A DNA stretch of 64,000 nucleotides from Celerinatantimonas diazotrophica. Lineage in GTDB: Bacteria; Pseudomonadota; Gammaproteobacteria; Enterobacterales; Celerinatantimonadaceae. The DNA lies in NCBI RefSeq assembly GCF_004339545.1, contig NZ_SMGD01000011.1, positions 1 through 64,000 on the forward strand, written 5' to 3'. Positions 9,241 to 24,700 of the stretch are shown here, one piece after another. The stretch's first letter is position 1. The number at the start of each line of letters is the position of its first letter. The position numbers and the translations under genes are program-made. The notes under the pieces were generated by a model that was given only the letters and a program-made list of their open reading frames with translations, ran no database searches and was not told the DNA's origin.

Positions 9241-9756
9241 TTATTCAAAACACTCCGAATAAGATGAACACTGTTCACACGTTGGAGAGCGACAAACCAA
9301 GGCTCCTTGTCCTAAACAAAGTTGGCGATAAAAAAACTTCTTCCAGCGCATCGCGGGATGGTTTCGCGCCCCAAGCTCTGGAAAACAATCATTCATCAAT
9401 TGGGTTAGCATTGGACGCTCAGGCAAACCTAAATCTTGCCACAAATGGTGAAACCCCAAACTAGCGCTGGCAACGATCATTGCCATATCCCAAGGCTCAT
9501 GTACTTGAAAACGAGCTAACCATTCATACAATTCGCTAAACTCATCCGCGCGGCGCTGTTTTTGCAAACCGAGCAATTGCGCTTTCAGCTTATCATGTTC
9601 AGGATTTTTTAACGGGGTCGCTTCACCAGAGCCCAGCAACTGAGCGTACATTTGAGGTGACAGCTGCAGATGCTCGCCTAAAATACCAAATCCCTGCCGC
9701 TGCCGTTTTAACAATAATTGACACCAAGAAAATAATTTTGTTTCAACTTCAACCAT
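9241..9756 (-). CDS. nifQ: NifQ, molybdenum donor for FeMo-co
   Basis: 171 residues. The C-terminal signature C-x4-C-x2-C-x5-C (C155, C160, C163, C169: CRSPTCEQCSSYSEC) is the metal-binding motif of NifQ. The family supplies molybdenum as a Mo-Fe-S cluster to NifEN. Its ATG shares one base with the nifB stop (TAATG), so the two genes are translated together. Confidence 0.93.
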   Translation of the reverse strand: MVEVETKLFSWCQLLLKRQRQGFGILGEHLQLSPQMYAQLLGSGEATPLKNPEHDKLKAQLLGLQKQRRADEFSELYEWLARFQVHEPWDMAMIVASASLGFHHLWQDLGLPERPMLTQLMNDCFPELGARNHPAMRWKKFFYRQLCLGQGALVCRSPTCEQCSSYSECFE

Positions 9757-11286: not shown

Positions 11287-11302
11287 TGTCGCAGATCTTA
11301 CA
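11287..11302. promoter_or_regulatory. NifA upstream activator site for nifB
   Basis: TGT-CGCAGATCTT-ACA matches TGT-N10-ACA exactly, about 95 bases upstream of the nifB -24 element. It overlaps the last codons and the stop of nifA (stop at 11298-11300). Confidence 0.65.
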
Positions 11303-12881
11303 GATGCCTCATTTTTATATCCATAACCTGAATACGATAAGCTATCTGGCGCGGTGTCATGCCCAGAATACGCGCGGCTTTAGCTTGAACCCAACCACTA
11401 GCTTCAAGTGCTGCGATAACTCGCTGACGTTCATCTAAATTTTCATCTTGCGGCGAAACCGCACTGCTGTAATGCGAAATAGGATTGGTTGCAACGCTTG
11501 CACTTGATTGTGGCTTTGGTTGCATCGGCGATTTTTCTAAAATGATCATATCGCGATCAATCAAACCCGATTCACTTAATACCGCCGCTCGCTCTAAACA
11601 GTTCTCTAATTCTCGCACATTTCCCGACCAAGTATGTGCCATCAGCAGCCTTATGGCCCCTTCGCTGATATGCAATTTACGGTGCTGTTTCTTACTCAAT
11701 TTATCCAATAAAAATTCGGCTAATGAATCAATATCTTCAATTCGCTCGCGAAGCGGTGGCAGTTCAATGGGCATCACATTGAGTCGATAATACAAATCTT
11801 CTCGGAACTCTCCGTCGCGCACTTTTTTCTCAAGATCTTTGTTAGTCGCCGTCACCACTCGAACATCCACTTTAAGAGTTTCATTGCCACCCACTCGCTC
11901 AAACTCCCCCTCTTGTAAAACACGCAACAACTTGGCTTGAAATAACGGACTGATCTCACCGATTTCATCTAAAAAAATGGTTCCCCCATCGGCCTGTTCA
12001 AAACGACCTTTTCTCTGACGCATCGCCCCAGTAAAGGCTCCTTTTTCATGACCGAACAGTTCACTTTCTAATAAGTTTTCCGGTAATGCCGCACAGTTTA
12101 AGCGCACAAAGCTCTGATTAGAGCGCGGTGAATTATAGTGAATCGCATTGGCAATCAGCTCTTTACCTGTGCCGCTTTCACCACGAATTAGCACCGTCGT
12201 ATCCCATTTAGCCACTTGTCGAACTGTCGAAAAGACCTGCCGCATAGCGGGGGTTTTGCCCACCATATTGGCAAAACCATACTGAGAACGAATTTTACGG
12301 CGCAGTTGATCACGCTCTTCAATTAACCCTTCGTGTTGCGATTTAGCCTGACCAACTAAGCGCACGGTTTGCCCAACCAAATTCGCCACAACTTCTAAAA
12401 ATCGCGTTCTAGCCGACAGTTCTTCGGGTCGATTCGCCATCGGCTGCGCAGCCAATACACCAAATGGTTTGGCATCAGGGCCCAAAATTGGCACACAAAT
12501 AAACGGCAACTGATAGTCATAGACATTAAGTCGGTCTAAAAAGCGCGGTTCATTCTCGAGTTTAACGACAACCGCTGCCTCGCCTTGGCGCATCACCTGC
12601 CCCAATATTCCTTCGCCTAAACGGTAGCGAATTTGCGAGACATCTTTACTCACTTCAGCAGACACACCATACAGTTTCTCCAACATCAACGCCTGTTGAT
12701 CAGGGTTATAAAGAGCAACCATTCCAAGCTGCATAGATACTTGTTCTTGTAGGCATGCTAGCATTTGAGAAAGAGCCTCTTCTAAGTTAAGCGTTCTACT
12801 CATAACCAGACTTAAACGCTGTAACGCAATTAATTGCTGACGTGAAGAAAATTCATGTCCTATCGAGTTCACGGTCATCAA
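11298..12881 (-). CDS. nifA: NifA, sigma-54-dependent activator of nif genes
   Basis: 527 residues in the order GAF domain (about 15-175), AAA+ domain (about 205-440) and C-terminal Fis-type helix-turn-helix (about 488-527). Walker A is GESGTGKE at 234-241, the sigma-54 contact loop GAFTGA at 281-286, and Walker B TIFLDE at 301-306. The linker between AAA+ and DNA-binding domain lacks the C-x4-C oxygen-sensing motif of rhizobial NifA, so oxygen control is expected to come through NifL. The start overlaps the nifL end by 29 bases, which indicates coupled translation at a near-equal ratio. Confidence 0.96.
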
Positions 12882-14439
12882 AAGCCTCCCTTTCTTTTTT
12901 AACAGGTAACGTCAAAATAACTCGACTTCCCCCGTTGTTGACTGGAACAACATCCATCGTTCCACCGTTTTCCAAAATCACATCCCTTGCCAGACACAAC
13001 CCTAAACCAAATTCATTGCGCAACAACTCCCGGTTATAAAATGGCTGCATAATGCGGTGACAAGCCTCTTTGGAAAGTAGCGGCCCATTATCATCAATAC
13101 GCACACTGACCTGGCCTTCATCAGTGCTAAACGCAATATTCACTATAGGTTGATGGTTTTCTTGATCGTGGCCACCTTTGACGGCGGCAACTAAGGCATG
13201 CTCGACCACTAGATCCAATGCACTTAGAATCCGAACTCTGGGTGCAAATAATGGGGTATCAATCCGTCCACCAATTTGTACCATGACCCCCAAACGGCGG
13301 GCGCGGCTATTGGCAAGCAGCGTTAAGTCTTCAATCAATGAATTCATGTCAAAACAAACTGGCATTTCGGGCTTGAGGCGCGGCATACTGCCTTGAATAG
13401 TGGTTAACGCTTGCTCAGCACTTCTTAGAATTTCATTCAAGGCTTTGGAAGGGTCACTCGATCTGTCACTAAAAGGATGATTTAATCGCACCATCGCATA
13501 AAGCAAATTAATCGGTTGGCTTAACTGATAAGCAGCGGTCTGCAGTGTCTCGCGAATAGCGGCTAACATTTTGCTATCAGATAACTGCCCTTGTAGCTGT
13601 TCTAAGTGATTTTGCACCAAAAGCTGATGATCGGCAGTACAATCCTGAGCAATTAACACATACAAGCGCTTCGTATCATGGCTAAAATAATGGCTGGCTT
13701 GTTCATTGACATGCGCTAATGGCTGGCAACTGAGGGATAACCATTTCTTTTCGCCACGCACCCAATATTCAATTGTGACTGGCTCGTGCGAAGCCTGTAA
13801 GTCGCTAAGCGGCATCTGCAACTGTTGTTGCATCTGCTGAGCAATAAAACTCAGTGGTTCGCTCCCACTTAAGTCAGTGCGCATGGTTTTATAGGCTAAA
13901 TTATCTAAAATAACTTTTTCATTTTCATCAAACACAACCGTTAAACTATCGGTGGCATTGAGGACTGACTCAAAATCTGCTTTTTGATTACTCAGCTCCT
14001 GAGTAAGCTGATAAGACTGGCTAATATCTCTTTGAATTCCAATAAAATGACTGATTGCATCTTCGGAATCAAAAACAGGAGCAATCGTAATTTCAGCTAA
14101 ATAATCAGTTCCACCGCGAGTACGATTGACTAGCTTTCCGCTCCATACTTTACCAGAGGTGATTTGCTTCCACAGTGTTTGATAGCACTCTTTGGGCGTT
14201 TGATGAGAGGACAACATGCGCTGATTTTGTCCCTTTAGCTCTTTTAAGGAATAACCAGTTAGCTGAGAAAAACGCTGATTGGCATAACAGATATTCGCGT
14301 TTAAATCAGTAATAGAAATCGCAATTGGGGCCTGCTCTACCACTTGCAAAAATAATCCTTCTGGCACACTGCTAAGCAGTTCTCCAAATTGCTTAGCCCA
14401 ATCTATCGAACGATAGGTTGGTTGCATCACATCTGCCAT
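12853..14439 (-). CDS. nifL: NifL, redox- and nitrogen-sensing anti-activator
   Basis: 528 residues. An N-terminal PAS domain (about 25-145, with [16 protein letters not shown] and the GIQRDIS end) would bind FAD, and a second PAS-like region follows. A histidine-kinase-like region ends with a GHKL ATPase fold ([22 protein letters not shown]). NifL sequesters NifA when oxygen or fixed nitrogen is present. I start at the ATG of MADVMQ because AAGGAGG sits seven bases before it; an in-frame ATG 21 bases upstream has no such site. Confidence 0.93.
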
Positions 14440-14460: not shown

Positions 14461-14476
14461 TGTACGAAACCTGACA
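14461..14476. promoter_or_regulatory. NifA upstream activator site between nifL and rnfA
   Basis: TGT-ACGAAACCTG-ACA is an exact TGT-N10-ACA motif. It lies about 180 bases upstream of the rnfA -24 element, and also inside the predicted nifL leader, where bound NifA could also act on nifLA. Which promoter it serves is inference. Confidence 0.55.
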
Positions 14477-14522
14477 ATTTGTTAGAGCTAGCCGGAAACG
14501 CTCATCGGCCATAGCGAATTAA

Positions 14523-14538
14523 TGCATAAACCGCGCCC
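14523..14538 (-). promoter_or_regulatory. Sigma-54 promoter candidate of nifLA
   Basis: On the minus strand GGGCGC-GGTTT-ATGCA keeps the GG/GC pair ten bases apart and most consensus bases. Transcription would start about 70 bases before the nifL ATG. An NtrC box lies about 100 bases upstream, as in Klebsiella nifLA. Confidence 0.55.
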
Positions 14539-14631
14539 TTACTAAAACCACACTATATATAGGTGTTTGGTCGTTTCTACCTGATTTATCGATTAAAAGT
14601 TGCTCTATATTGATTCAATTTTAACCAAAAT

Positions 14632-14648
14632 TGCACTTTTACTGTGCA
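14632..14648. promoter_or_regulatory. NtrC-binding site
   Basis: TGCAC-TTTTACT-GTGCA is a perfect 5-bp dyad matching the NtrC consensus GCAC-N7-GTGC. It is about 100 bases from the nifLA promoter candidate and only 10 bases upstream of the rnfA -24 element. It links general nitrogen control to the nif regulon. Confidence 0.7.
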
Positions 14649-14657
14649 CTTTATCAT

Positions 14658-14673
14658 TGGCATAAGTTTCGCA
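14658..14673 (+). promoter_or_regulatory. Sigma-54 promoter of rnfABCDGEH-nifF
   Basis: TGGCAT-AAGTT-TCGCA matches the -24/-12 consensus at nine of eleven positions, about 40 bases upstream of the rnfA ATG. Confidence 0.75.
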
Positions 14674-14711: not shown

Positions 14712-15290
14712 ATGCAAACCTTGCTGCTGTTATTTGTTGCAAATGTATTGGTGAATAACGTTATTTTTGCACGCTTTCTAGGACTCTGCCCATTTATGGG
14801 AGTCAGTCGCGATATCAACTCTGCTTTTAGTATGGGGCTAGCCACGACCTTCGTTTTAACCATGAGCTCAATCGCAACTTGGTTATTAGAATATGGCGTT
14901 CTTGAGCCTCTCGGACTGGGATATCTTCGTCTGCTGAGCCTAATTATGGTCATTGCCGTGATGGTTCAGTTGACTGAGCTATATATTGCCAAACAAAGTC
15001 CAGCACTACACCGTGTGTTGGGGATCTTCTTACCGCTTATCACCACAAACTGCGCAGTTTTAGGGGTTGCATTGTTAATTGTCCAGGAACAACTGACACT
15101 CATTCAAACAGTGATGTATGGCTTTGCCAGCGCGGTTGGTTTTACGTTAGTGATTGTCATGTTTGCCGGTCTGCGCGTGCGCTTATCGTTAAGTGAAGTC
15201 CCGAAAATTTTTGCTGGAAATCCAATTGCATTTATCACCGCAGGCACACTGGCAATGGCATTTACCGGGTTTGCAGGAATGGCCAAATAA
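14712..15290 (+). CDS. rnfA: RnfA, membrane subunit of the Rnf electron-transport complex
   Basis: 192 residues with six hydrophobic segments. It contains the LCPFMGVSRD segment and the ITTNCAVLGVAL stretch with a conserved cysteine that, with RnfE, holds a membrane-embedded iron-sulfur cluster. Rnf uses ion gradient to push electrons from NADH up to ferredoxin or flavodoxin, which feed nitrogenase. It is the first gene of a tightly packed plus-strand operon and follows a sigma-54 promoter, so this set is the nif-regulated Rnf. Confidence 0.95.
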   Translation: MQTLLLLFVANVLVNNVIFARFLGLCPFMGVSRDINSAFSMGLATTFVLTMSSIATWLLEYGVLEPLGLGYLRLLSLIMVIAVMVQLTELYIAKQSPALHRVLGIFLPLITTNCAVLGVALLIVQEQLTLIQTVMYGFASAVGFTLVIVMFAGLRVRLSLSEVPKIFAGNPIAFITAGTLAMAFTGFAGMAK

Positions 15291-15301
15291 GGAGAGTTGC
15301 G

Positions 15302-15844
15302 ATGCTAAATTTACTTGCATTTCCACTATTGGCTGCAATTGTTGGCTACCTTCTCGGGATTGCAGCGATTCGTTGGTATGTTGCGAAAAACCCACTTGAA
15401 GCCGAAATCACCGACTTACTGCCCAATGGACAGTGTGGTCAATGCGGTTTTCCGGGCTGTTCAGAAGCTGCCAAAGCAATGGTTGCCAATGAACTACCAG
15501 CAAACGGTTGCCCTCTTTGCTCCTCAATGGTTAATCACCAAATTGCCGAAAAGTTAGGGGTCACACTGAGCACTGATGGTGATAAATCGGTAGAGATGGT
15601 CGCAGGGATTGACACTGAAAAATGCGATGGCTGTGGACGTTGCCTAAAACAGTGCCCATTTGATGCCATTATTGGCGCACCTAAACAGTTACATGGCATC
15701 GTGTCTGAGGCATGCACGGGGTGTGAACAATGTATCGCTATATGTCCTCATGATGGCATTGCATTGTATCAAGATCCTCATCTTATCAACCCACTGCCCA
15801 AACCTTCCCTTCATTCGCTGCAATTGGAAGAAAATCATGTTTAA
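15302..15844 (+). CDS. rnfB: RnfB, iron-sulfur subunit of the Rnf complex
   Basis: 180 residues. An N-terminal membrane helix (about 5-25) is followed by the four-cysteine cluster motif with CGQCGFPGC near residues 45-53. Two ferredoxin motifs, CDGCGRCLKQCP near residue 110 and CTGCEQCIAICP near residue 140, each hold a [4Fe-4S] cluster. RnfB is the presumed exit point of electrons to ferredoxin or flavodoxin. RBS AAGGAGAG precedes the ATG. It overlaps rnfC by 8 bases. Confidence 0.95.
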   Translation: MLNLLAFPLLAAIVGYLLGIAAIRWYVAKNPLEAEITDLLPNGQCGQCGFPGCSEAAKAMVANELPANGCPLCSSMVNHQIAEKLGVTLSTDGDKSVEMVAGIDTEKCDGCGRCLKQCPFDAIIGAPKQLHGIVSEACTGCEQCIAICPHDGIALYQDPHLINPLPKPSLHSLQLEENHV

Positions 15845-17285
15845 TTTTGCGAAAAATATTGCTGGTGGAATTCACCCGGTAGATGATGGGAAATCACTCA
15901 CTCGCAATCAGCCTATCGAGCGTTTGAATGAGCTTCCACCAAGATTGTATCTACAACTGAAACAGCACCCAGGAGCCAAAGCATTGGCGATTGTTCGCGA
16001 AGGTGATGCAGTTTCCGCAGGACAATTAATAGCATCAGCAAATGGTCGATTTAGTGCCCCTGTCCATGCGCCTTTAAATGGTCGCGTGGTCGGTGTAGAT
16101 GAACAACAAATTGAAATTAAACCGGATAGAGTTCAAATCCCACCGCCGCCACAGCCGATTAAAGAAACACCGCCCCATGAGCCAGCACTGATGCTTGAGC
16201 TAATAAAAAACGCCGGAATCGTTGGCATGGGGGGAGCGATGTTTCCTTTGTACGATAAGCTCGAATTATGTGACAAATACGACATCGACTCACTGCTGAT
16301 TAATGGCAGTGAATGTGAACCTTACATGACCTGTGATGACCGAGTGATGCGCGAGCAATCGGCTCAGATCGTCGGGGGAATTCGTCTGCTAATGCAGATA
16401 ACCAAAGCTAAACAAGCCATCATTGGCATTGAAAAAAATAAACCCGAAGCAATTGATGCGATGACATCGGCAACCAGTGAAGATGAGAATATTCATGTTC
16501 ATCCGCTTCCGGCCTTGTATCCATTAGGTTCATCGAAACAGCTCATTCGAGCTCTGACGGGGATCCAACTAGCTGAAGGACGTCGTTCAGCCAGCTATGG
16601 CGTTCTTGTCCATAATGTTGCTAGTTGCATTGCTGTTTTTGAAGCGATTCGCATTGGCCGTCCTATGACCCACCGAGTCGTCACCATCAGTGGCCGAGCA
16701 GTCACTCAGCCACGAAATATTCTCGCCCCCATTGGAACCCCTATTTCCCATTTGATCAGCCAATGTGGAGGATTAGTTCAGACGCCAACACAACAAATTA
16801 TGGGGGGTCCGATGATGGGCAGAATGATTACCAGTGTCCATCAGCCAATTGTCAAAGGCACTTGTGGAATATTAATGCTGGATGAAACTGAAAGTAATAT
16901 TTCAGTTCCCTCAAGTTGCTTGCGTTGCGGTCGCTGCGCGCAAGTTTGTCCAATGCAATTACAACCCCTTCATTTACTTCCTTTAGTCCAGCATGAGCAA
17001 TTCGACGAAGCTAAAACGCATGGCCTTTCACAATGCTTATCTTGTGGGGCTTGTGCTTATGTCTGTCCGGCATCGCTGCCGCTAACAGCCAGTTTCAACT
17101 GGGGCAAATTTGAACTTAAAAAACAGCGTTACATGACTACGAAATCTGAAACAACACGTCAGCGCGCAGCCGACCATCAGCAGCGTCTAGCAGCTGAAGC
17201 TGAAGCGAAAAAGGCAGCCAAGGCGGCTAAAGCAGCGAAACGTAAATCTCGGCGAAATAGTCCTGCGCAGGAGGAAACCATATGA
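15837..17285 (+). CDS. rnfC: RnfC, NADH-oxidising subunit of the Rnf complex
   Basis: 482 residues. It has the Rnf N-terminal GGIHPVDDGKSLT segment, a flavin/NADH-binding region homologous to NuoF (GIVGMGGAMFP; NGSECEPYMTCDDR), a SLBB-type region, and two [4Fe-4S] motifs CLRCGRCAQVCP and CLSCGACAYVCP near residues 360-410. The C-terminal tail is alanine/lysine-rich and probably helical. I start at 15837 inside the rnfB end, where the RnfC family begins; longer in-frame starts would run through rnfB. TGA of rnfC overlaps ATG of rnfD. Confidence 0.95.
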   Translation: MFNFAKNIAGGIHPVDDGKSLTRNQPIERLNELPPRLYLQLKQHPGAKALAIVREGDAVSAGQLIASANGRFSAPVHAPLNGRVVGVDEQQIEIKPDRVQIPPPPQPIKETPPHEPALMLELIKNAGIVGMGGAMFPLYDKLELCDKYDIDSLLINGSECEPYMTCDDRVMREQSAQIVGGIRLLMQITKAKQAIIGIEKNKPEAIDAMTSATSEDENIHVHPLPALYPLGSSKQLIRALTGIQLAEGRRSASYGVLVHNVASCIAVFEAIRIGRPMTHRVVTISGRAVTQPRNILAPIGTPISHLISQCGGLVQTPTQQIMGGPMMGRMITSVHQPIVKGTCGILMLDETESNISVPSSCLRCGRCAQVCPMQLQPLHLLPLVQHEQFDEAKTHGLSQCLSCGACAYVCPASLPLTASFNWGKFELKKQRYMTTKSETTRQRAADHQQRLAAEAEAKKAAKAAKAAKRKSRRNSPAQEETI

Positions 17286-18244
17286 TCTTGCAAGCCCCAT
17301 TTACTCACCTTGGGGTGCGAATTGAGCAAATGATGCGTTATGTGTTGTATGCGCTCGCTCCAGCTTGGTTATTTTCAATTTACCTGTTTGGCCCACCCGC
17401 ATTAATGCTCTCAGCAGGATGCGTTATTGCAGCAGTGGTCACAGAATGGCTCTGCCATAAAATCAATTCGAACTGCCAAGGTAGCTTAGGCGATGGCTCG
17501 GCTATCGTAACCGCAATTATTCTAGCAATGAGTCTACCACCCCATGCGCCCGTTTGGATGGGGGCTCTAGGCAGTGCTCTGGGCATTGCTTTTGGCAAAC
17601 AATGCTATGGCGGGTTAGGACAGAATTTATTTAACCCGGCAATGTTCGCTCGTGTTGTTCTGCTCATCGCTTTTCCAGTCGAAATGACCCATTGGCCTGA
17701 ACCATCGTTACATAGCTGGCATATGATGGGCGCTGATGCGATCACTGCAGCCACACCACTTGCCCACGAAACCGGCTATCACATTGTTAAACTGACTAAG
17801 TTACTGCTTGGGGATACCGCCGGAAGTATGGGGGAAACATCCATTGTGGCATTGGTGATTGGCGGGGCTTATCTGTTCTATAAGCGAGTGATCGAATATC
17901 CACTGGTCATATCCAGCCTATTGGGCTGTATGATCCCCGCAACGTTGATGTACCTATTTGCGCCTACGCACACCCTCCCACCATTGCAGCAACTTACATC
18001 GGGCGCACTTGTTTTTGCCGCAATTTTTATCGTAACAGACCCGGTAACAGCACCTTCATCACGCTTGGGACAATGGATTTATGGCGGAACATTCGGATTA
18101 CTAGTCTGGCTAATTCGCCAATTTGCCAATTACCCTGAAGGTGTTGCGTTCGCAATCTTGTTATGTAACGGCATAAATCCGCTGATTGAGCATTACACCC
18201 GCCCAGTTATCTATGGACACAACACCCCGCGGAGAAAATTATGA
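17282..18244 (+). CDS. rnfD: RnfD, flavin-carrying membrane subunit
   Basis: 320 residues with about eight to ten hydrophobic segments, homologous to NqrB. The DGSAIVTAIILAMSLPP stretch near residue 80 and the IVTDPVTAPSS motif near residue 255 are family marks. RnfD carries covalently bound FMN; the exact attachment threonine I do not assign. ATG overlaps the rnfC stop and the gene's own stop overlaps rnfG, showing tight coupling. Confidence 0.94.
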   Translation: MILQAPFTHLGVRIEQMMRYVLYALAPAWLFSIYLFGPPALMLSAGCVIAAVVTEWLCHKINSNCQGSLGDGSAIVTAIILAMSLPPHAPVWMGALGSALGIAFGKQCYGGLGQNLFNPAMFARVVLLIAFPVEMTHWPEPSLHSWHMMGADAITAATPLAHETGYHIVKLTKLLLGDTAGSMGETSIVALVIGGAYLFYKRVIEYPLVISSLLGCMIPATLMYLFAPTHTLPPLQQLTSGALVFAAIFIVTDPVTAPSSRLGQWIYGGTFGLLVWLIRQFANYPEGVAFAILLCNGINPLIEHYTRPVIYGHNTPRRKL

Positions 18245-18873
18245 CCGATACAACGACCATTAAACCGGCCCACACTCAGGCTCTCACTCTGGCCATCTTT
18301 GCATTGATCGTAGCACTGTTAGTCATGCTCTCTAATCGTTGGATTGGCCCACTCATTAAGATTCAGGAACACAACGACCAGTTAAACAAGATTCAACAGG
18401 TTCTGCCTCAATCACTTTATGACAATGACCCAAGCAAACATGAAATCAAGTTAACGTTGGCCGATGGTCAAACAGTGGATTATTTCCTAGCAACCAAAAA
18501 TGGCACACCTTCGGCATTTATCTTTAACAGTATCGCCCAAGGATACTCTGGTCCCATTAAGTTGATGATAGGGATTAAACCAAATGGTGTGTTAACTGGT
18601 GTGCGAGTTTTAGCACACAACGAAACGCCTGGGCTTGGCGACAAAATTGAAGCAGATAAAAGCAATTGGATTTTACAATTTGCAGGATTATCACTTAAAA
18701 AACCGCCCGAATCACAATGGTTAGTCACCAAAGATGGTGGGCATTTCTCAGCGTTTACTGGAGCAACGATCACACCTCGTGGCGTTGTGAAAGGGATTCG
18801 ACAGACATTAGAAATGTTCCGTCATAACAGCACTGTATTTATTCACCATAAGGAGGTAGCTGATGGCAATTAA
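18241..18873 (+). CDS. rnfG: RnfG, periplasmic FMN-binding subunit
   Basis: 210 residues. One N-terminal membrane anchor (about 15-35) precedes a periplasmic FMN-binding domain. The covalent attachment motif S-x-T-G-A-T-x-T is seen as SAFTGATIT near residues 172-180. The conserved HNETPGLGDKIE segment is near residue 125. The last bases overlap the start of rnfE by 11. Confidence 0.94.
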   Translation: MTDTTTIKPAHTQALTLAIFALIVALLVMLSNRWIGPLIKIQEHNDQLNKIQQVLPQSLYDNDPSKHEIKLTLADGQTVDYFLATKNGTPSAFIFNSIAQGYSGPIKLMIGIKPNGVLTGVRVLAHNETPGLGDKIEADKSNWILQFAGLSLKKPPESQWLVTKDGGHFSAFTGATITPRGVVKGIRQTLEMFRHNSTVFIHHKEVADGN

Positions 18874-19549
18874 AGAATATCTAGGCCAAGTGTACGAAGG
18901 ATTATGGCCTAATAACGTCGTATTAAAACAGGCATTAGCTCTTTGCCCGACGCTTGCGGTAACAAGCTCAGCCACCAATGGGTTAGGCATGGGGCTGGCA
19001 ACGCTCGTGGTTATCATGCTCTCTAACTTATGTATCTCTATGATTCGAGGGTTAGTGACCCCGCAAGTAAGGATCCCCGTCTTTACCATTATTATCGCAG
19101 CTTTGGTGACATTAGTTGACCAAGCGATGAATGCTTGGGTTCATGATCTGCATAAAATTCTGGGTCTGTTCATTCCATTGATTGTTACCAACTGTGCCAT
19201 TTTCGGTCGTGCTGAAAGTTACGCGTCGAAAAACTCACCCGTTCCATCATTAGTCGATGGTTTTGCCACGGGAATTGGTTTCACCTTCGCGCTAGTGCTC
19301 CTTGGTGGAGCCCGCGAAATTATCGGTCAAGGCACGCTATTTAGTCATGCAAATTTACTCTTAGGGGCACATTTCACTTGGATGGAAATCACCGTTCTGC
19401 CTCACTACAAAGGGTTTTTGCCAGCGATTTTACCAAGTGGCGGTTTCTTCTTCCTAGGGCTGCTGATTGTTGGTCACCGATTGGTTGATAAGCTAGTGGC
19501 AAAGCGCAAACAAGCGGTTAGTCGAACCTCAATGGAGTCGGCATCATGA
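18863..19549 (+). CDS. rnfE: RnfE, membrane subunit of the Rnf complex
   Basis: 228 residues with six membrane segments, paralogous to RnfA. It has the N-terminal LWPNNVVLKQALALCP and the VTNCAIFGRAE segment with the conserved cysteine. Together with RnfA it forms the inverted-repeat core of the pump. RBS AAGGAGGTAG precedes the ATG. Confidence 0.95.
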   Translation: MAIKEYLGQVYEGLWPNNVVLKQALALCPTLAVTSSATNGLGMGLATLVVIMLSNLCISMIRGLVTPQVRIPVFTIIIAALVTLVDQAMNAWVHDLHKILGLFIPLIVTNCAIFGRAESYASKNSPVPSLVDGFATGIGFTFALVLLGGAREIIGQGTLFSHANLLLGAHFTWMEITVLPHYKGFLPAILPSGGFFFLGLLIVGHRLVDKLVAKRKQAVSRTSMESAS

Positions 19550-19818
19550 AGATTTCAGTCGCGCATGCAGCCGGTAATAAAGGCAAATGGGTTGCGCTAG
19601 AGGTTACTGACCCAATCAATGTGCAAGAAGCCATTGTCCGTTCAAATGTTTTAAATGACTTTCCAGAGCTAAATTTTGAGCAATGCAAAGTAGGAATTTT
19701 CGGCAAAATTTGTTCGCTGGACACACCAGTGACAGATGGTGCTCGAGTAGAAATATATCGTCCTATCGAACGCGTAGTAAGCGACGATGAAGATGACGAC
19801 GACGATGATGAAGATTAA
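19546..19818 (+). CDS. rnfH: RnfH family protein with acidic tail
   Basis: 90 residues. It resembles the RnfH/RatB beta-grasp family (VAHAAGNKGKWVALEV is a diverged version; VEIYRPI near residue 75 is the usual ending). RnfH is found in nif-linked rnf operons and is not a core pump subunit; its role is uncertain. The C-terminus is an unbroken run of D/E (residues 78-90). It overlaps the rnfE stop by 4 bases. Confidence 0.88.
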   Translation: MKISVAHAAGNKGKWVALEVTDPINVQEAIVRSNVLNDFPELNFEQCKVGIFGKICSLDTPVTDGARVEIYRPIERVVSDDEDDDDDDED

Positions 19819-19871: not shown

Positions 19872-20417
19872 ATGACCCAAGTAGGCATTTTCTTCGGAAC
19901 TGACACCGGCAATACACGAAAAGTAGCTAAATGGATCCACAAAGCGCTCAATGACGAACAAGTTGCTAAACCTATCAATATCAACCGCGTCTCTTTAGAC
20001 GATTTAATGGGTTATGATGTACTCATTCTGGGGACGCCAACTTTAGGTGATGGCGAATTACCAGGATTAGATGCTCAAGCTGAAACTGAAAGCTGGCAAG
20101 AATTTGTTGATCAACATATGGATGACGCCGATTTTAGCGGCAAAAAAATCGCAATGTTTGGTCTAGGCGATCAGATGGGGTATGCAGATGAATTTGTCGA
20201 TGCGCTTGGTGAGCTCTATGACATTTTCGCTGATGCTGGCGCGACCATGATCGGCAGTTGGCCATCAGCTGGTTATGAATTTACCAGTTCAGGGGCGCTC
20301 GATGATGAGAGCAAAGAGTTTGTCGGATTGGTCATCGATCAAGATAATCAAGCTGACTTAACGCCAGAACGTATTAATCAATGGGTTGAACAGATTAAAC
20401 CCGAACTAGGTCTTTAA
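19872..20417 (+). CDS. nifF: NifF, flavodoxin electron donor to nitrogenase
   Basis: 181 residues, a long-chain flavodoxin. The phosphate loop is GTDTGNTRKVA (residues 9-19), with aromatic flavin-flanking residues in TPTLGDGELPG and GLGDQMGYADEFVDALG. NifF passes electrons to NifH. It is the last gene of the rnf operon, 53 bases after rnfH, so the electron source (Rnf) and carrier are made together. RBS GAAGGAG is present. Confidence 0.95.
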   Translation: MTQVGIFFGTDTGNTRKVAKWIHKALNDEQVAKPININRVSLDDLMGYDVLILGTPTLGDGELPGLDAQAETESWQEFVDQHMDDADFSGKKIAMFGLGDQMGYADEFVDALGELYDIFADAGATMIGSWPSAGYEFTSSGALDDESKEFVGLVIDQDNQADLTPERINQWVEQIKPELGL

Positions 20418-24499: not shown

Positions 24500-24546
24500 T
24501 ACTTAAAGAATAAACAAATATATCTTTTAGTAGCTCTCCATAGTCC

Positions 24547-24700
24547 ATTGTACTATGACAGTCACATGCTTATTCAGCTATATGACCAGCTAAGGATGGT
24601 TGATCTCATCTCTTAACTTCGGCAACAACACCTTTCAAACTCCGTCTTCGGAATCACCCTCAAGAGCCCTACTTATTGCAGTTGCACCTCTACATGTAAG
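24547..24700 (-). promoter_or_regulatory. Lysine riboswitch (L box)
   Basis: On the minus strand the conserved L-box blocks occur in order: AGAGGTGC (24684-24691), GTAG, GAAAGG, GCCGAAG (24617-24623), AGCTGG (24586-24591) and GACTGTCATAG (24553-24563). Order, spacing and total length agree with the lysine riboswitch. It lies about 75 bases upstream of the lysW start. A CATAGT/ACTATG hairpin (24539-24557) overlapping its 3' block may be the switch between states. Confidence 0.9.

Follow-up and report, generated by a model that had tools for sequence, protein, structure and literature searches.

A divergent nifLA and rnfABCDGEH-nifF control region with probable crossed enhancers in Celerinatantimonas diazotrophica and its kinship with the nifF/nifLA region of Klebsiella-type enterics

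Here, we analyzed a stretch of 64,000 nucleotides from Celerinatantimonas diazotrophica (contig NZ_SMGD01000011.1, positions 1 to 64,000; hereafter, the window) and, in particular, the region that separates nifLA from the rnf operon. Our analysis points to a divergent nifLA/rnfABCDGEH-nifF control region with, probably, crossed enhancers, such that each enhancer would adjoin the promoter that it does not serve, and from which rnf was most likely lost in the Klebsiella-type enterics. This reading links two textbook layouts, the nifF/nifLA region of Klebsiella and the rnf/nifLA region of Azotobacter, and suggests that one of them originated from an operon resembling the other.

The genes on both sides of the region are readily identified by profile searches. 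On the minus strand lie nifL (12853..14439), the first gene of nifLA, which matches NCBIfam TIGR02938 (310 bits, cut-off 242) and begins with the ATG at 14439, with GGAGG just upstream, and nifA (11298..12881; TIGR01817, 694.6 bits, cut-off 528.85). On the plus strand, starting from the ATG at 14712, run the seven genes of the electron-transport complex, rnfABCDGEH (14712..19818), in the same order as in relatives. RnfA, RnfB and RnfH were recognized by NCBIfam, the match of RnfH (55 bits) being below its cut-off of 75. The rnf operon ends with a gene for a nifF-type long-chain flavodoxin (19872..20417, plus strand; NCBIfam TIGR01752, Pfam PF00258). NifB and NifH were also identified by NCBIfam, and next to nifB, at 9241-9756 on the minus strand, there is a gene for NifQ (Pfam PF04891, unnamed by NCBIfam), which is found beside nifB also in the sister species, i.e., the second of the two genomes representing the genus, and in Brenneria. 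The genome further encodes a true ntrC (762.7 bits), and NtrC-like boxes with one mismatch each are located before and after glnA, near ntrC.

The nifL-rnfA intergenic region spans 270 bases and contains all four sites that had been recognized in the earlier note, where it was described as a compact divergent nifLA/rnf region. Proceeding from nifL, these are a NifA upstream activator site in the nifL leader (14461-14476), which matches the consensus TGT-N10-ACA and occupies the same place in the sister species; a predicted sigma-54 promoter of nifLA, GGGCGCGGTTTATGCA (14523-14538, minus strand); an NtrC dyad, TGCAC-N7-GTGCA (14632-14648), with no mismatch in the window and one in the sister species; and a predicted sigma-54 promoter of the rnf operon, TGGCATAAGTTTCGCA (14658-14673, plus strand). 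The two promoters are the best sites on the minus and plus strands of the intergenic region, respectively; for sigma-54, the matrix, and for NtrC and NifA, the consensus sequences used in these assignments are general background knowledge. With the T of TGG taken as -26, the transcription starts are inferred at ~14512 for nifL and ~14684 for rnf, which would place the center of the NifA site at ~+43 of nifL and ~-215 of rnf, and the center of the NtrC dyad at ~-128 of nifL and ~-44 of rnf. The dyad does lie right beside the rnf -24 element, as previously noticed, but the gap to the TGG is 9 bases, not 10.

There is no other perfect TGT-N10-ACA in the nifL-rnfA intergenic region of the window and, in particular, none between 14523 and 14673. 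A weak second NtrC-like site, TGCTCTATATTGATTCA (14601-14617), has 3 mismatches and lies 31 bases from the dyad, with a counterpart at -32 and 4 mismatches in the sister species; it is doubtful that this is a real site. A sigma-54-like sequence, TGGCAGATGTGATGCA, at 14423 (score 12.1) was rejected as the nifL promoter, being located within the first nifL codons; at the equivalent position in the sister species, no site is listed by the best-site scan. Comparison of the nifL-rnfA region with the plasmid collection yielded no match.

In sigma-54 activation, a distance of ~-128 is usual for an enhancer, ~-44 is very close, and ~-215 is far but workable via looping. Thus, NtrC would be at the usual distance for nifLA, and NifA could reach rnf, the combination that points to crossed enhancers. 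Under nitrogen limitation, NtrC would bind the dyad and, from ~-128, activate the sigma-54 promoter of nifLA; NifA would then bind the site in the nifL leader and, from ~-215, loop to the rnf promoter. The outcome would be a timed cascade, from NtrC to nifLA and on to rnf-nifF. That NtrC acts on nifLA, as the earlier note had envisaged, and not on rnf is favored by both the position and the conservation of the dyad. The earlier note did not mention that the enhancers might be crossed, that the region is related to the one between nifF and nifLA in Klebsiella, or that the rnf operon closes with nifF.

In the sister species, all four elements are present in the same order. Between the two genomes, 56 of the 71 bases in these elements are identical (the NifA element being counted with its extension, 22 bases), compared with 85 of the 199 bases in the remainder of the intergenic region. 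The rnf promoter shares 15 of its 16 bases with the sister species. The nifL promoter is the least conserved element (10 of 16 bases), and its aligned counterpart, AGGTATACTTTATGCA, is weak (score 6.0).

A broader comparison started from NifL searches, which yielded 80 loci. We discarded 6 loci lacking a good NifL match, 10 duplicates, and 6 loci in which neither rnfA nor nifF adjoins nifL; the remaining 58 unique nifL/rnf or nifL/nifF intergenic regions were all scored under one rule. In the NifL tree (64 rows; midpoint root, with several long branches elsewhere), the genus of the window and 28 enterics form a single branch with support of 100/100, so that differences in architecture mark one evolutionary origin rather than 29 independent ones. 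This clade accounts for 29 regions, from the window genus and enterics, of which 22 belong to nifF-type enterics and five to rnf-type enterics. The 29 non-clade regions come from Azotobacter, Pseudomonadaceae, Neiella, Vibrio, Methylomonas, two other genera of the window's own family, and additional bacteria.

Judged by their predicted sites, the regions fall into two architectures: within the clade, the nifL leader contains the NifA site, whereas outside it, this site is located between the promoters. A leader site, beyond the nifL promoter, was found in all 29 clade regions (27 in the leader only, 2 also between the promoters), and 27 of the 29 are without another perfect TGT-N10-ACA between the promoters that might serve rnf or nifF. 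Outside the clade, the raw counts are 27 of 29 regions with the NifA site solely between the promoters, one with the site in the leader only (L042) and one with both (L040); for the two exceptions, the rule picked a poor nifL promoter, and when better listed nifL promoter sites are used, their NifA sites, too, fall between the promoters. The NtrC box follows the same divide: with at most one mismatch, it is present between the promoters in 18/29 clade regions vs 0/29 non-clade regions, and with at most two mismatches, in 25/29 vs 6/29, the remaining 4 of the 29 clade regions having no NtrC box at this threshold. Furthermore, the divergent promoter ends with TTCGCA in every clade region, whereas even the shorter TCGCA end is found in none of the non-clade ones. 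The prediction, then, is that in one NifL clade, nifLA responds to NtrC, and that elsewhere, it shares NifA sites with rnf, a difference that bears on the transfer of nif clusters between hosts.

The leader NifA site of the clade carries an extension, ACAATTTGT (14474..14482), which is part of a near-palindrome, GACAAWTTGTC, with one mismatch in the window and perfect in 11 of the 29 clade regions, including that of the sister species. The composite of site and extension, TGT-N10-ACA-WWTTGT (14461-14482 in the window), was detected in 26/29 clade regions vs 0/29 non-clade regions. Within the 64-kb window, the perfect composite occurs at the nifL leader only; in the whole genome, there are 3 forward and 3 reverse matches vs 1 and 1 for the control, and with such matches elsewhere, the composite is not unique to the nifL-rnfA region. 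The extension may be bound by a second NifA dimer or by another regulator and, being clade-specific, presents a concrete target for footprinting. A tentative idea, to which we assign a fairly low probability, is that the composite, as a single DNA element, both sets off rnf (or nifF) and slows nifLA transcription, and thereby serves as a switch between production of the regulator and, subsequently, of the electron supply.

It appears unlikely that the leader site mainly feeds back on nifLA, through activation from downstream or as a roadblock, with rnf driven otherwise. Such feedback would fit the location of the site within the nifL transcript, its clade-specific extension, and the autogenous control of nifLA in Klebsiella that is reported, by its title, in a paper from 1983. 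However, it would leave rnf without an obvious driver, given that no second perfect NifA site is available in the intergenic region, and rnf is reported to be NifA-regulated in Azotobacter, Pseudomonas stutzeri and Azoarcus in the accessible part of a review. NifA feedback on nifLA, as suggested in the earlier note, may occur but is neither needed nor the best reading of a leader site that is present throughout the clade.

Direct action of NtrC on rnf, either as an activator or as a blocker, from the box beside the rnf -24 element is quite improbable, notwithstanding the short distance to the TGG. A center at ~-44 is very near for a sigma-54 enhancer, and across the clade, the gap between the NtrC box and the divergent -24 element is not constant but ranges from 9 to 51 bases (best box in each of the 18 regions with at most one mismatch). 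Closeness is thus not maintained, so that a block of rnf by NtrC, which had also been considered in the earlier note, is not supported as a conserved feature. In P. stutzeri, rnfA is reported to be lower when ntrC is mutated, and its promoter region is said to contain a putative NtrC site, but nifL and nifA drop in this mutant as well, and accordingly, the effect on rnf may be indirect.

The individual elements differ in how readily they arise by chance. In 3000 dinucleotide-shuffled versions of the nifL-rnfA intergenic region (270 bases), the perfect NtrC dyad never appeared, an equally good sigma-54 site was obtained in 47 on the plus strand and in 42 on the minus strand, and a TGT-N10-ACA site in 196; both sigma-54 sites together with the NifA site were found in none. 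In the 3.97-Mb genome, the only perfect dyad is the one in the nifL-rnfA region, and the control, the reversed pattern, likewise has a single match. Hence, the dyad is not enriched genome-wide and only its position is notable. That the sites are chance matches in a region controlled in some other way is very improbable: NifA-like sites are indeed common in the shuffles, but none of the shuffles contains the perfect dyad, and both the sister species and the clade as a whole have the sites in the same order.

Under the crossed-enhancer reading, NifA would act on the divergent promoter over a considerable distance, and the spacing of these sites shows signs of helical phasing. With one chosen site per region, the distances between the leader NifA site and the divergent -24 element fall into the classes 189-191, 232, 242-246, 254 and 262-265, with 189 in the window. 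These distances are close to whole 10.5-base turns, a strong phasing that 81 of 20000 random placements equaled; when all leader NifA sites are counted, the phasing is weaker (R 0.72, 207/20000). For NtrC and the divergent promoter, the phasing is strong, too (5 of 20000 random placements as high), with the proviso that the classes 40 and 51 are not independent, since they represent the outer boxes of tandem NtrC pairs. The phasing of NtrC relative to nifL is weak (1590/20000). Counting against the crossed reading, the distance between the two is 102 in the window vs 105 in the sister species, which puts the window ~0.3 turn out of phase with the sister species and the other clade members. The non-clade group displays no phasing (12832/20000). 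No WATCAANNNNTTR-like IHF site with at most one mismatch was found in the window between the NifA site and rnf, and IHF-like sites in the relatives have no consistent place.

A divergent nifF/nifLA control region was reportedly described in Klebsiella pneumoniae by Minchin, Austin and Dixon in 1988. Our comparison with this layout draws on the 22 nifF-type enteric regions, among which the K. pneumoniae record itself was not identified. The window shares with these regions the NifL clade, a sigma-54 promoter of nifLA preceded by NtrC binding sequence, the leader NifA site, and the divergent sigma-54 promoter ending with TTCGCA. Two differences stand out. First, nifF is the first divergent gene in the Klebsiella-type regions, whereas in the window, rnfA is the first and nifF the last. 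Second, the tandem NtrC boxes, 21 bases apart in many enterics, are missing in the window, which has one dyad only, accompanied by nothing better than the 3-mismatch site at -31. We regard the region in the window as a homolog of the one between nifF and nifLA in Klebsiella-type enterics.

The gene order suggests how the two layouts are related. In all 6 relatives examined far enough, nifF follows rnfH, and the order rnfABCDGEH-nifF was observed in the sister species, two rnf-type enterics and 3 of 3 genomes outside the clade. Enterics with rnf beside nifL are represented by five regions, from Brenneria sp. 4F2 and four other genomes, of which two were examined far enough. In the NifL tree with its midpoint root, the enterics with rnf diverge earlier than those of the nifF type, and loss of rnf in the latter is the simplest reading, in agreement with the TTCGCA end common to all 29 divergent promoters. 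Most likely, then, rnfABCDGEH disappeared from the nifF-type enterics, and nifF remained there under the former promoter of the rnf operon, which would be the nifF promoter of the present-day Klebsiella-type enterics.

The second textbook layout, the rnf1/nifLA region of Azotobacter, P. stutzeri and Azoarcus, resembles the window, according to partial accounts, in the divergent arrangement of nifLA and rnf, the sigma-54 promoters and the NifA-type sites. It differs in that the NifA sites are located between the promoters, where the window has none, and in that the stretch between the promoters, where the window has a perfect dyad, contains no NtrC box within one mismatch of the consensus; both differences refer to the 29 non-clade regions, which do not include Azoarcus. 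The nifF-rnfHEGDCBA-nifLA cluster of Vibrio porteresiae, known to us from a partial account and compared by gene order only, likewise has rnf and the flavodoxin gene nifF beside nifLA. The divergent nifLA/rnf layout as such has already been described in a review, according to which rnf and nifLA are not associated in its Enterobacteriaceae clade; the five rnf-type enterics reported here are an exception to that statement. Our literature search, which covered some sources in part only, revealed no publication that describes crossed enhancers in combination with rnf and none naming Celerinatantimonas together with nifL; the accessible part of a paper on a Celerinatantimonas seagrass symbiont (PMC8636270) does not mention rnf.

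Several observations concern the relatives and the surroundings of the region. The two genomes of the window's genus (L011 and L012) have enteric-like NifL, whereas nine other genomes of the same family (L002-L010) fall into the other clade, which suggests transfer of the nif region. In L040, a relative of the same order, there are four NifA sites between nifL and rnfA, arranged as two pairs 39 bases apart. Farther along the window, a lysine riboswitch (24523-24700, minus strand; 111.8 bits) precedes a gene of the Na+/H+ antiporter family.
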